Origin: Candidatus Lindowiibacteriota bacterium
Lineage (GTDB): Bacteria > Lindowbacteria > 2-12-FULL-62-27
NCBI GenBank assembly: GCA_023249255.1
Contig: JAHFCY010000089.1
Location: 1-11,743 of the forward strand
Direction: 5' to 3'
Length of the DNA: 11,743 nt
Shown here: piece by piece, positions 179-10,633 of the stretch
How positions within the stretch are numbered: position 1 is the stretch's first letter
Layout: every line of letters begins with the position of its first letter
Notes under the pieces: generated by a model
Told to the model about the DNA's origin: nothing
Database searches by the model: none
Seen by the model: the letters and a program-made list of their open reading frames with translations, nothing else
Made by a program: the position numbers and the translations under genes

Positions 179-882
179 CACCGGCTCCCGTCGGGCGCGG
201 TCTGACCGTTGGCGATTCTTCCATCGGCCAGGCGAACGACCGAGTTGGCGTGGGACATGACCTTGGCGTCATGGGTGGAGAAGATGAAGGTTGTCAACTC
301 TTCGCGGTTCATCTCCTTCATCAGGTCGATGATGGTTTCTCCCGTCACCGAATCCAGATTGGCGGTGGGTTCGTCCGCGAGGACGATTTTGGGCCGGCCC
401 ACGAGCGCCCGGGCGACGGCCACCCTCTGGCGCTGGCCCCCGGAAAGCTCGCTCGGCCTGTGCTTCGAGTGCGTGTCGAGGCCCACCTTCGCCAGGAGTT
501 CATCCACGCGTTTCGCCCTCTCCCGCGCCGACAGCCTGCGCTGAAGAAGCAACGGGAATTCCACGTTCTGGAAGACGGAAAAGACGGGCACGAGGTTGAA
601 ACTCTGGAAGATGAACCCGAGGGTATTCAGTCGAAGGTCGGTCAATTGTCGGTCGTTCAATCGTTTTGTGTCGTGGCCGTCGACGAGGACCGTGCCCGCC
701 GTGGCGACGTCCACGCATCCGATGAGATTGAGCAGCGTGGTCTTGCCGGACCCGGACGGCCCGACGATCGAAAGGAAATCTCCCGGCGCCACGGAGAGGT
801 TCACCCCCCGTAGCGCGGGCACCACCACCTTATCGAGAGGATATTCCTTGTGGACGTCCTTGATGGAAACGATCTCGGCCAT
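178..882 (-). CDS. ABC exporter ATP-binding protein, LolD/MacB family
   Basis: The cytoplasmic ATPase of a LolCDE/MacB-type exporter, 234 residues, the normal length for a stand-alone LolD-like subunit. All nucleotide-binding motifs are present: Walker A GPSGSGKT at 41-48, Q-loop Gln93, signature LSGGQ at 146-150, Walker B VLADE at 167-171, D-loop NLD at 175-177 and switch His204 in STHD. The N-terminus, IVSIKDVHKEYPL followed by VPALRGVNL, is typical of this family. The start at 882 has a good ribosome-binding site (AAGGAG, 6 bases upstream). The permease follows with a one-base overlap. Family members power extraction of lipoproteins from the inner membrane or export of peptides and macrolides. 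The substrate here is unknown, so I give no gene symbol. Confidence 0.92.
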   Translation of the reverse strand: MAEIVSIKDVHKEYPLDKVVVPALRGVNLSVAPGDFLSIVGPSGSGKTTLLNLIGCVDVATAGTVLVDGHDTKRLNDRQLTDLRLNTLGFIFQSFNLVPVFSVFQNVEFPLLLQRRLSARERAKRVDELLAKVGLDTHSKHRPSELSGGQRQRVAVARALVGRPKIVLADEPTANLDSVTGETIIDLMKEMNREELTTFIFSTHDAKVMSHANSVVRLADGRIANGQTAPDGSR

Positions 883-917
883 GTGTCCGCTCCTTCTTGG
901 ATGAATGATGGGGATGG

Positions 918-941
918 AACATTTTTTAACATTGTAACATT
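918..941. repeat. Three AACATT direct repeats in the ABC exporter leader
   Basis: AACATT occurs three times, at 918-923, 928-933 and 936-941, spaced 10 and 8 bases apart, in an AT-rich island within otherwise GC-rich sequence. The repeats overlap the candidate -10 element and probable transcription start of the exporter operon. Clustered copies close to helical spacing are the kind of pattern a repressor site gives, but the unit is short and AT-rich sequence can produce it by chance. Confidence 0.3.
931..936 (-). promoter_or_regulatory. Candidate extended -10 promoter element for the ABC exporter operon
   Basis: On the minus strand the sequence reads TGTTACAAT: a TACAAT hexamer (5 of 6 matches to TATAAT) preceded by a TG at the extended -10 position. 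It would place transcription initiation about 40 bases before the ATPase start codon. No good -35 hexamer is seen 16-18 bases further upstream, which extended -10 promoters can tolerate. This is a motif match only. Confidence 0.35.
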
Positions 942-1027
942 TGCCGGTTCACTTGATCCCGGAGCAGTGGACAGGTCGAACAAATCCAAAAACTCCGTTG
1001 GGACTTTGTTTGCCATGTCCGTTCCTC

Positions 1028-1057
1028 GAGGACACACGTGATGATTTTCATGTCCTC
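1028..1057. repeat. Inverted repeat with 7 bp perfect arms
   Basis: GAGGACA at 1028-1034 pairs perfectly with TGTCCTC at 1051-1057 across a 16-base loop, between the histone-like gene and the ABC exporter genes. There is no T-run directly after the stem on either strand, so it is not a standard intrinsic terminator. It could be a dyad operator or an RNA hairpin in the intergenic transcript. Its left arm overlaps the small palindrome CCTCGAGG at 1024-1031. Confidence 0.3.
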
Positions 1058-1158: not shown

Positions 1159-1356
1159 TTAAGCGCAGGCGCAGAAGTCGTGCTTGCGGACTGTCTTTCG
1201 ACCGTTGGCTTTGGCGCGGACTGCCGCCTCGCCGATGTACCAATGAACCACCGCGTTCAATCCATCCAGCGCGTCGCCCGCCGTGTTGCATTTGGCTTTC
1301 TTCAGCAACCCCTTCACCTTGCTCGACACAACCAGCATTTCCAGTTTCTTGGCCAT
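1159..1356 (-). CDS. Small bacterial histone-fold DNA-binding protein
   Basis: A 65-residue basic protein that I read as a single histone-fold domain. It starts MAKKLEMLVVSSKVKGLLKK, a lysine-rich first helix. A long central helix follows at about residues 27-50 (DALDGLNAVVHWYIGEAAVRAKA). It ends NGRKTVRKHDF at 51-61. The RxTxxxxD pattern (Arg53, Thr55, Asp60) is the conserved loop-2 signature of archaeal histones such as HMfB. The protein stops almost at once after it, so the third helix is missing or very short, as in described bacterial histones such as Bdellovibrio Bd0055. The ending CACA, with two cysteines, is unusual. An excellent ribosome-binding site (GAGGAG) lies 7 bases before the ATG at 1356. 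Expected role: a dimeric nucleoid protein that binds or bends DNA. The gene stands alone. The assignment is by motif and helix pattern, not by alignment. Confidence 0.75.
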   Translation of the reverse strand: MAKKLEMLVVSSKVKGLLKKAKCNTAGDALDGLNAVVHWYIGEAAVRAKANGRKTVRKHDFCACA

Positions 1357-1447
1357 TGAAGCCTCCTCTGTTGTTGGAATTCAGAAAACTGCAGGGCATC
1401 AAATCAGTTTGGCGCAAACGTGTCATCCATCGCAGCGATAATTTTTC

Positions 1448-7472: not shown

Positions 7473-8750
7473 TTACGGCCGCGCGGTCGTCCTGACTGAC
7501 TCCGCCTGCTCCGTTTCCCCGCGTCGTTCGGACCGGATGAGCGGCCCCGTTTTCGACATCCCTGTCTCGCGGGGTAATCGGCCATCCTTGGCCAGCGGCG
7601 GCACGTACACGCACGCCGGTTCTTCCTCAAGCGGGTCGCCCGTGAGGGCCCAGGCGCGGGCGCGGTTTCCGCCGCAGACGATGCGGTATTCGCACACGCC
7701 GCATTTGCCTTTCAGCTTGTCGGGATTTCGAAGATCGCGGAAGAGGAAGCTGTCGCGATAGATGTCGATGACGCTTTTTTCGCGGATATTGCCCGCCCGG
7801 ATCGGCAGAAATCCGCTCGGGTAGACGTCGCCGACGTGAGAGATGAAGACCAGACCCTTGCCGTCGTTCACACCCTGCGTGGGTCGCTGAATGCCGTCGG
7901 CGTATCGGAATCCGGCGCCGCTGACTTCGACGTAGCGCCCTCGCCCGTCCGTCGCGGCCGCCCTGCCGGCTCGCCGTTCACGCGCGATCGCCACGCGCCT
8001 GAAATGCTGGGCCGCTGTGGCCTTGATGTCGAACGGAACTTTTTTGGTCAGATCGTAGAGCCAGTGAAATATTTTCTCGTGCTGGACGGGCGAGATCATA
8101 TCGTCTTTTTTGCCGCGGCCCATCGGCACGAGAAAGAAAACGCTCCACTGGACCGCGCCGAACCCCTCGACGAGCTTGGCGATCTCAGGCAGGACGGCGA
8201 TGTTTTGCCGCGCGACGGTGGTGTTGATCTGGAGCGGGATGTCGAGGTCTTTCAGATCGCGGATGATTTCGATCGTTCGGTCAAAACATCCCTTCTCGCC
8301 GCGAAAATCGTCATGGACCGCCGCGGCCGGGCCGTCCAAAGACAGCGCGATGCGGGCGATGCCGGCGTTTCGAATTTCCTTGAGACGCATTTTTGTGACG
8401 AGCGGTGTGGCGGAAGGAGTGAGGGACGTGCGAAGTTTCCGCTCCTTGGCCGCGTAACATATCAAGTCTTCGAGGTCCGGCCGCTTCATCGGGTCGCCGC
8501 CGGTGAGGACGAACACGGGGGATCCCCACGCGGCGATGTCGTTGATGAGCCGGTAGCCTTCGGTCGCCGACAACTCGCGGGAATCCCGGATTTTTTGCGC
8601 GGCCGCGCGACAATGGACGCAGCAGAGGTCGCAGGCGCGCGTGACTTCCCAGATAACCGTGTACGGCGTCAGGTTGAAATCGACAGACGGGATCGGAGTC
8701 TCTTTCCACGCCAGTTTCGCGCCCGCCTGTGCGCCGACTTCGCGAATCAT
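7473..8750 (-). CDS. Radical SAM/SPASM protein, AhbD-like (possible tetrapyrrole decarboxylase)
   Basis: A 425-residue radical SAM enzyme with a C-terminal SPASM domain. The [4Fe-4S]/SAM motif Cys40-x3-Cys44-x2-Cys47 sits in VTRACDLCCVHCRAAA, followed by the GGDP form of the SAM-binding GGE motif (84-87). SPASM-type cysteines are at 350, 353, 359 and 380 (KCGVCEYRIVCGGNRARA), enough for an auxiliary cluster. The HCRA start, TGGDP, NTT(V)ARQN and FFLVPMGRG resemble AhbD, which turns iron-coproporphyrin III into heme b, and its uncharacterised relatives (I recall TIGR04053). An insertion at about 255-300 and the ending YPSGFLPIRAGNIRE suggest the relatives rather than AhbD itself. The tail after about 390 is polar and probably disordered. 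The start overlaps the preceding gene by 4 bp (ATGA). Substrate is inferred from family and neighbour only. Confidence 0.82.
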   Translation of the reverse strand: MIREVGAQAGAKLAWKETPIPSVDFNLTPYTVIWEVTRACDLCCVHCRAAAQKIRDSRELSATEGYRLINDIAAWGSPVFVLTGGDPMKRPDLEDLICYAAKERKLRTSLTPSATPLVTKMRLKEIRNAGIARIALSLDGPAAAVHDDFRGEKGCFDRTIEIIRDLKDLDIPLQINTTVARQNIAVLPEIAKLVEGFGAVQWSVFFLVPMGRGKKDDMISPVQHEKIFHWLYDLTKKVPFDIKATAAQHFRRVAIARERRAGRAAATDGRGRYVEVSGAGFRYADGIQRPTQGVNDGKGLVFISHVGDVYPSGFLPIRAGNIREKSVIDIYRDSFLFRDLRNPDKLKGKCGVCEYRIVCGGNRARAWALTGDPLEEEPACVYVPPLAKDGRLPRETGMSKTGPLIRSERRGETEQAESVRTTARP

Positions 8751-8956
8751 AGCCCGAACTCGAATCCGGCGCCTGCTTCAACCGCGTCCATGTCTTCTTC
8801 ACGCCAACCCACCGCCAGGTAGTACGGGCATTTTCGGTAATCGACGCTGCAGTACAGCCGGATTTCCTCCATGCTCGGAACCATCAGCCGGTCCGCTTCG
8901 CAGATGATCGTGTCTTTGCCTTTCTGGTACGGGCAACCTGTTTCGACGTTGGTCAT
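8747..8956 (-). CDS. 69-residue cysteine-rich protein between two radical SAM genes
   Basis: A small acidic soluble protein with four cysteines at 8, 19, 36 and 43 in the contexts GCPYQ, IICEA, LYCSVDYRKCPYY. Paired CPY(Q/Y) motifs and spaced cysteines suggest one zinc or iron-sulfur site. I recall similar short Cys-rich conserved proteins with this C...C...C...CP pattern but no established function. It has its own strong ribosome-binding site (AAGGAG, 7 bases before the ATG). It overlaps both neighbours by exactly 4 bp (ATGA at 8953-8956 and 8747-8750), so it is made in step with the two radical SAM enzymes. Likely an accessory, cluster-carrier or complex subunit. A peptide substrate for the radical SAM enzymes is less likely, because the C-terminus (DAVEAGAGFEFGL) has no obvious repeated core and the cysteines look like metal ligands. 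Confidence 0.75.
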   Translation of the reverse strand: MTNVETGCPYQKGKDTIICEADRLMVPSMEEIRLYCSVDYRKCPYYLAVGWREEDMDAVEAGAGFEFGL

Positions 8957-10164
8957 GAACCTTCTCCTTTCATCGGTATTGGATCCCGTTCCATATCGGG
9001 ATTGCCGGCCAAAATTTCATCGTCAGTCAGAATGCAGGCCGGATCGGATCCCCACGGATCGCCCGTCGCCGCTTCGGCCCGCGACCGCAGTCCCCCGCCG
9101 CACATCGTTTTAAACCGGCATGCGGAGCACCGTCCTGTGAGGTGGAGCAGGCGGTCGCGAAGCTCGATGTGATAGGCGTCGGTGGGGTGAGCCCAGATTT
9201 CGGAAAAGGGTTTGTTTCGGACGTTGCCGAACGTCCGGTGCATCGAAAACTGGTCGGGGTGAACATTGCCGCTCCAGTCGATCTCGCCGATTCCGACGCC
9301 CGAACTCGTCCGCGCGCCGCCGTGCCGTTCCAGCATCTCGTGGATTTTTTCGGAACGGCCGTGGTTGGCGCCGAGAAGTTTGAGATAGATGTAAGGCCCG
9401 TCCGAGTGGTTGTCGACGGTCAGGAGTTCTTTTTCAAGATGGTTATCCGCGAAAAACCATGCGGCGTGGCACAGTTTGTCGATCGCCGATCGCCGCTGCT
9501 GGAGCGGCAAATCGTCCGGTCGGATGTGACTGCCCCGGCCTGCATAGGCAAGGTGATAGAAACAGGCGCGGCCGATCGGTTCCTCGCCGACAAAATGCAG
9601 GACGTTGTCCAGATCGGCGACCGTGTGTTTGGTCAGTGTCAGCCGCAAGCCCACGCGAACGTTCATCTCCGCCAGATGCCGCACGCCCCGTTTGGCCATC
9701 TCGAACGCGCCGGGCGCGCCGCGGAAAAAATCGTTGACGGCGCCAAGCCCGTCGAACGACACGCCGACGTAGGAAAATCCGGCGTCGGCTATTTTCTTTG
9801 CGACGTTCGCTGTGATCAGTGTCCCGTTGGTTGAAAGCGTGACCCGAAGACCGAGCCGGACGGCAGTTGCGGCCAGCTCGAAAATATCAGGCCGCGTAAG
9901 CGGCTCGCCGCCTGAAAACAGGACGAACTTCACGCCATATTCGGCCATGTCTTTCAACACGGCTATGACTTCGGCAGTCGTCAATTCGTTGGGACCCAGC
10001 TGGGTGTTCGAATCGGAGTAGCAGTGGATACAGCGAAGGTTGCACCGCCGCGTGAGGTTCATCACCACGATCGGACGAATCGCCGCCGGGTCCTTCGGTT
10101 TGGCGTATCGGACGGCGTCGGACTCGTTTGAAGTTCCCGCATAAAGCGTGGAAATATTAATCAT
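8953..10164 (-). CDS. ahbC: Radical SAM/SPASM protein, AhbC/NirJ-like (didecarboxysiroheme deacetylase family)
   Basis: With the start at 10164 the protein has 403 residues. The radical SAM motif is Cys41-x3-Cys45-x2-Cys48 in NLTRRCNLRCIHCYSDS, then SGGEP (84-88) and STNGTL (111-116). SPASM cysteines are at 346, 349, 355 and 377. The segments CFYHLAYAGRGS, TVDNHSDGPYIYLKLL and GIGEIDWSGNVHPDQF are, as I recall, hallmarks of AhbC/NirJ proteins. These remove acetate side chains from 12,18-didecarboxysiroheme to give iron-coproporphyrin III (AhbC), or act on the propionates in heme d1 synthesis (NirJ). I chose the ATG at 10164 because MINISTLYAGT matches the family N-terminus; the frame stays open to a TTG at 10251, with another ATG at 10224. 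No clear ribosome-binding site precedes any of these. It heads the three-gene coupled operon. AhbC versus NirJ cannot be settled without the rest of the pathway. Confidence 0.85.
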   Translation of the reverse strand: MINISTLYAGTSNESDAVRYAKPKDPAAIRPIVVMNLTRRCNLRCIHCYSDSNTQLGPNELTTAEVIAVLKDMAEYGVKFVLFSGGEPLTRPDIFELAATAVRLGLRVTLSTNGTLITANVAKKIADAGFSYVGVSFDGLGAVNDFFRGAPGAFEMAKRGVRHLAEMNVRVGLRLTLTKHTVADLDNVLHFVGEEPIGRACFYHLAYAGRGSHIRPDDLPLQQRRSAIDKLCHAAWFFADNHLEKELLTVDNHSDGPYIYLKLLGANHGRSEKIHEMLERHGGARTSSGVGIGEIDWSGNVHPDQFSMHRTFGNVRNKPFSEIWAHPTDAYHIELRDRLLHLTGRCSACRFKTMCGGGLRSRAEAATGDPWGSDPACILTDDEILAGNPDMERDPIPMKGEGS

Positions 10165-10633
10165 AGTGGATGGTGTAGATTGCAAAATCAGCGCCACCGA
10201 ATATCTGTTCTGGAAATCCAACATATCCTTCTGATAATCAATAAAATCCAAATGACGGCCAACAAGTGCTGACTCGACCCCACAAACAATTTCTGTCCCG
10301 ATTCGTTACATCCTTCGCGCCTTTCATACCCAGTCCCCCATCCTTGCCGCCGTCGGCCCTGCCGGAAATTTATGCGTTCCAGTCGCAGGTGAATGGGCTG
10401 TACGGGTCGGCCTCCGCTGACAACTCCTCCCGGATCTGTCCCACCACACTCCGGCCTGATTCACAGGGATGAAAACAAAACAATGAACCGCCTCACCTCA
10501 TACAGGATGGGGAATCTGCATACCAAGGAAAGACTGTCCGGTTTGCCGGTGACATGTGCCGAATTACGTCAGGATGTGTTCGCTGACCATCCCATTCGGG
10601 CCCGGTGGGTGACGACGCGGATCAGCGGCGGGA
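10165..10633. other. 469 bp region without a convincing gene
   Basis: This stretch separates the aminotransferase stop from the AhbC/NirJ-like start. Open frames on both strands lack family features: a plus-strand frame at 10266-10472 and another from 10393 that runs into the aminotransferase antisense. A 29-codon minus frame (10238-10327) has no good ribosome-binding site. I see no tRNA, no recognised riboswitch core such as a B12 box, and no terminator with a T-run. A short CCGG-TTTG-CCGG dyad lies in the middle. The only other items are the tentative promoter at 10234-10262 and its TGATAATCA dyad. It is unusually long for a window where other same-strand genes overlap, so it may hold a regulatory leader or gene remnants. 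Confidence 0.5.
10234..10262 (-). promoter_or_regulatory. Candidate promoter for the radical SAM operon
   Basis: On the minus strand, TTGGCC (10262-10257, 4 of 6 to the -35 consensus) is followed after 17 bases by GATTAT (10239-10234, 4 of 6 to the -10). It would give a leader of about 65 bases before the ATG at 10164. The -10 overlaps a small dyad TGATAATCA (10232-10240), whose TGAT/ATCA half-sites match those in the array at 7429-7464. Both hexamers are moderate matches, so this is tentative. Confidence 0.25.

Follow-up and report, generated by a model that had tools for sequence, protein, structure and literature searches.

What kind of histone is encoded by a 65-residue open-reading frame in a Candidatus Lindowiibacteriota (Lindowbacteria) genome, and what would it do in a cell that already has HU and another histone? 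The frame lies in an 11,743 nt stretch of contig JAHFCY010000089.1 (hereafter the window), and an initial annotation had read it as a free-standing bacterial histone fold similar to the minimal histones of Bdellovibrio. Its translation, MAKKLEMLVVSSKVKGLLKKAKCNTAGDALDGLNAVVHWYIGEAAVRAKANGRKTVRKHDFCACA, contains the annotated R53, T55 and D60 motif and the CACA tail, and loop 1 adds a cysteine, C23, to the two of the tail (Table 1).

Orthologs sharing 95% and 97% protein identity were found in two other Lindowbacteria genomes, each from another genus. Because these orthologs lie beside different genes in all three genomes, and pairwise DNA differences fall mainly at the third codon position (20/24, 16/22 and 14/20), the frame is a genuine gene and not a chance ORF. 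Aligning the three orthologs also identified a promoter-like element, beyond which the sequence farther upstream diverges; TGACA-N17-TTTGAT (1398-1425) has a single copy in the window, where 0.01 copies would be expected. A consensus promoter scan found nothing because its −10 box must carry A as the second base. The gene is apparently transcribed on its own, as predicted from sequence. An operon or partner-gene arrangement was rejected, since each of the three orthologs has its own set of neighbouring genes and the neighbours also vary over the wider clade described below. No smc/map neighbourhood, as in Leptospira, was seen by eye around the clade histones, and no Rfam families were present in the window.

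Other features of the surroundings were recorded by inspection. A short minus-strand ORF in the window (801-1037) is possibly a broken copy of an ORF in another genome, G001 (L012:12954-13442, MANEIPAEFLDLF), which is longer, lies close to the histone and looks like a flavin/F420-binding oxidase; by eye, the two ORFs have similar starts. Upstream of the G001 histone, L012:9633-9752 resembles a tRNA 3′ half (GGTTCGAATCC...), for which ARAGORN made no call; it adjoins AbiE-like and PIN-like ORFs and may be an island edge. On the minus strand of the window, 7473-10251 encodes two consecutive radical SAM/SPASM proteins, next to a gene for a nitronate monooxygenase-like protein and to a two-component pair; this may be one operon.

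Table 1 Coordinates of the histone gene, its signals and a related tandem histone (window positions unless a locus is given).
Feature	Position	Strand	Basis or remark
Histone gene, 65 aa + stop	1159..1356	minus	ORF, sequence match, structure prediction, fold search
R47-F61 codons: FtF residues R47/N51/R53, loop-2 RxTxxxxD (R53/T55/D60)	1174..1218	minus	Residue roles: PMC11390915, PMC12701072
CACA tail codons (C62, C64), past the end of other FtF histones	1162..1173	minus	
Shine-Dalgarno AGGAGG	1362..1367	minus	Identical in three orthologs
Promoter-like ATGACA-N17-TTTGAT	1398..1426	minus	NTGACA-N17-TTTGAT kept in three orthologs
Tandem double histone, 121 aa	L031:3992-4357, contig JAUYGZ010000015.1	+	Both halves FtF type

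A sequence search of the PDB gave HLp of Leptospira perolatii as the best match (E 7.2e-9). Bdellovibrio HBb came second (E 1e-6), and archaeal HTkC (0.022) and Asgard histones ranked lower. The AlphaFold2 model was confident (pLDDT 89.2, from an input alignment of 38 rows), with helices at residues 11-20 (alpha-1) and 29-50 (alpha-2), a one-turn alpha-3 at 58-60 and the CACA tail at 62-65, although residues 61-65 were of low confidence (mean pLDDT 65). Foldseek with VIA-align again placed HLp first (rmsd 0.5-0.6 Å, Z 8.8-9.0, TM 0.97-0.98 on target), ahead of HBb (1.1-1.6 Å, Z 8.2-8.7), HTkC (0.9 Å, Z 8.0) and HMfB (2.0 Å, Z 6.3); the top matches stood about 2 Z over the remaining rows and covered the whole domain, the aligner itself cautioning that Z <8 may mean merely a common arrangement. 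The monomer has the helix-strand-helix-strand-helix order of solved histones, its alpha-2 is shortened and its alpha-3 lies within the 3-4 residues typical of alpha-3-truncated histones, unlike the full-length alpha-3 (about 10 residues) of nucleosomal archaeal histones. HMfB and others of that type share the histone fold and RxTxxxxD, but also have a longer alpha-2, and nucleosomal histones are archaeal only (PMC11390915). The window protein is a bacterial, alpha-3-truncated histone.

The annotated histone fold was borne out by the sequence match, structure prediction and fold search, and the suggested comparison with HMfB and Bd0055, made with the monomer model, returned histone folds, with HLp closest. 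The claim that the chain ends before a third helix holds in that the helix is shortened, yet alpha-3 is truncated rather than missing. The likeness to Bdellovibrio did not hold: HLp is nearer than Bd0055/HBb (E 7e-9 vs. 1e-6; 0.5 vs. 1.1-1.6 Å), and the window histone possesses R47 and N51, which HBb lacks.

These two residues bear on how the protein assembles. Face-to-face (FtF) and dimer histones are told apart by the profile residues R48 and N52 (Schwab et al., PMC11390915), and in HLp the tetramer contact is made by R49, N53 and R55 (Hu et al., PMC12701072). Using the offset of 2 given by the structure alignment, these HLp residues correspond to R47, N51 and R53 of the window histone, and the published FtF profile (R48, N52, R54, T56, D61) is matched throughout by R47, N51, R53, T55 and D60. 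The dimer type, in which R48 and N52 are missing, does not describe this protein; sequences in which R, N or both are missing from the FtF positions were HBb-like or of a similar dimer type. The HLp DNA contacts S14, K15, K17, K21, T27, G29 and T57 (roles from PMC12701072) are all identical in the window histone, the non-identical positions being A13 (S11) and T56 (K54). HLp (PDB 9QT0, 9QT1, 9QT2; PMC12701072), which wraps about 60 bp of DNA, thus resembles the window histone in fold, in sequence (45% identity), in the tetramer and D62 equivalents and in nearly all DNA contacts. HTkC, the FtF histone of Thermococcus kodakarensis (PDB 9F2C; PMC11390915), shares the alpha-3-truncated fold but is archaeal and only 32% identical, with no C-terminal extension reported.

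We consider it probable that the window gene encodes an FtF histone which acts as a ring tetramer wrapping DNA, accessory to the resident histone and HU. Two chains would pair as a histone handshake dimer, and a ring-shaped tetramer would arise from two dimers joined via R47, N51 and R53, with DNA wrapped round its basic rim through S12, K13, K15, K19, T25, G27 and T55; DNA wrapping by such a tetramer is the likeliest function, judging from the residues retained. The nucleoid role proposed in the initial annotation is likewise putative. Structure prediction supports handshake pairing in this branch: a natural tandem double histone from a lineage sister to the window clade (L031) is predicted to fold as a single-chain handshake dimer (pLDDT 87.5, pTM 0.79), and its model matches single-chain H2A-H2B dimers and Methanopyrus HMk along its length. 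Doublet (DUF1931-type) and fused histones, like this tandem, have two paired histone folds, whereas the window gene encodes a single fold. Downstream of the tandem gene come a terminator-like hairpin and a gene that by eye looks like rpmH.

One feature that sets the window histone apart from HLp is its C-terminus: HLp ends at F63 (equivalent to F61), where the window histone continues with CACA. In the FtF model the C-terminal carboxylate of the opposing chain partners the R48 equivalent (PMC11390915; D4GZE0), a pairing that a longer chain would be expected to alter. Ending one residue after D61 is a structural detail of D4GZE0 rather than a stated criterion for membership, but with four more residues after F61 the FtF interface may differ or fail in the window histone. 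The extension is shared. Among the FtF rows returned by one pattern-based scan, all 51 single-histone rows outside the clade end one residue after the RxTxxxxD aspartate (extension in 0/51); all 12 clade rows carry 2-4 residues past this usual C-terminus (tails CACA, HID, INM, MAG, ICM, MS, MAN, IVM and IITQ). Two further sequences, L112 (tail LA) and L113 (tail YICK), also fit the pattern. Clade members come from Lindowbacteria, Elusimicrobiota, Myxococcota (filed as Deltaproteobacteria), Bdellovibrionota and Acidobacteriota, with support of 98/83 in the careful tree, while a quick tree that also included the second histones gave 83; the alignment spans 67 columns and resolves weakly, so we make no firm claim on inter-phylum transfer. 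Text searches of the main papers, supplementary tables aside, turned up no mention of a C-terminal extension in FtF histones, and an extended FtF clade across about five phyla would seem to be new.

Starting where other FtF histones end, the extension should alter or cover the dimer-dimer contact. Were it to block face-to-face contact altogether, the window histone would be a DNA-bending dimer like HBb, the next best match in both searches, and the tail does displace the terminal carboxylate that FtF tetramers use (PMC11390915). We regard this as unlikely, since R47, N51 and R53 are kept in 12/12 clade members despite their spread over several phyla, and in HBb itself the first two FtF positions are S and D. 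HBb/Bd0055 of Bdellovibrio bacteriovorus (PDB 8FVX, 8CMP, 9EZZ) shares the short histone fold, the RKTV loop and about 40% identity with the window histone. The HBb type is also what the second histone of the window genome resembles.

That second gene is part of a wider pattern. Searched with one profile, a separate second histone gene was present in 12 of 13 genomes with the clade type and in 4 of 40 other histone-bearing bacterial genomes (Fisher p = 8e-8, a statistic that ignores relatedness). Of 149 Elusimicrobiota genomes, 38 had a histone. Three of these carried the clade type (G061, the seed genome of this sample, G171 and G234), and each had a second histone too, as did few of the remaining histone-bearers. 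HU was present in 3/3 Lindowbacteria genomes. The window histone as the sole architectural protein of its cell was rejected given HU and the second histone, and its setting differs from that of HLp, the only histone of a host without HU. The distribution of second histones suggests that the clade type is an accessory histone of patchy occurrence that joined a resident one. A bacterium with two histones is already known (Bd0055 and Bd3044), but a near-constant second histone in genomes with the clade type appears new. Such regular company could mean that the window histone forms mixed dimers or tetramers with the second histone. We think this quite unlikely: the companion varies by host (Lindowbacteria and Elusimicrobiota have a dimer-type one, Myxococcota and Bdellovibrionota an FtF-type one), and the second genes lie elsewhere in the genome, so that parallel use fits better than a single obligate partner. 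The most likely role of the window histone is thus an accessory one, supplementing the resident histone and HU.

The CACA tail was noted in the initial annotation as a possible site of disulfide or metal linkage, and it is invariant across the three Lindowbacteria genera. Some other clade lineages also have a cysteine in the tail (ICM, YICK, VMCK), making metal or redox use a possible role. Metal binding or disulfide formation by the CACA tails, so as to lock the tetramer or sense its redox state, nevertheless strikes us as very doubtful, as most clade tails lack cysteine (HID, INM, MAG, MAN, MS, IVM, IITQ, LA), C23 is common in the histone family and the cytoplasm is normally reducing. Equally speculative is the fuller scheme, in which an FtF clade of about five phyla was added to the resident histone and uses its extension at the dimer-dimer contact, and ring assembly and DNA wrapping are controlled by the Lindowbacteria CxC through metal binding or redox sensing. 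In the Elusimicrobiota sample, L113 (G234) has an N-terminal CKC (MSECKCKW) besides its YICK tail, with cysteines at both ends of the fold.

Curated profiles were less informative. Pfam and NCBIfam gave sub-threshold matches only, both to histone-fold families (CENP-X and archaeal histone) and none to the ribbon-helix-helix family that the initial annotation had named as a possible refutation, and the PF00808 profile had no match in the genome; as these curated HMMs miss the window histone, absence from them says little. An unrelated small protein (e.g. a ribbon-helix-helix antitoxin) or a chance ORF, to which the want of any model above its cut-off might point, has next to no probability, contradicted as it is by the PDB sequence match, ortholog conservation, structure prediction and fold search. 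A phage collection held no relative, and a plasmid search gave three weak matches, to Halorussus. Two putative viral contigs in IMG/VR encode histones with FtF-type residues (L017:4001-4168 and L018:4001-4180; 48% and 37% identical to the window histone).

Detailed structural work covers only two bacterial histones, a dimer and a tetramer (PMC12701072). The window histone marks a third recognisable group, in which the tetramer residues are kept, extra residues lie at the join and a second histone is nearly always present, and it raises testable questions about the role of the FtF C-terminus and about why some bacteria keep two histones as well as HU.
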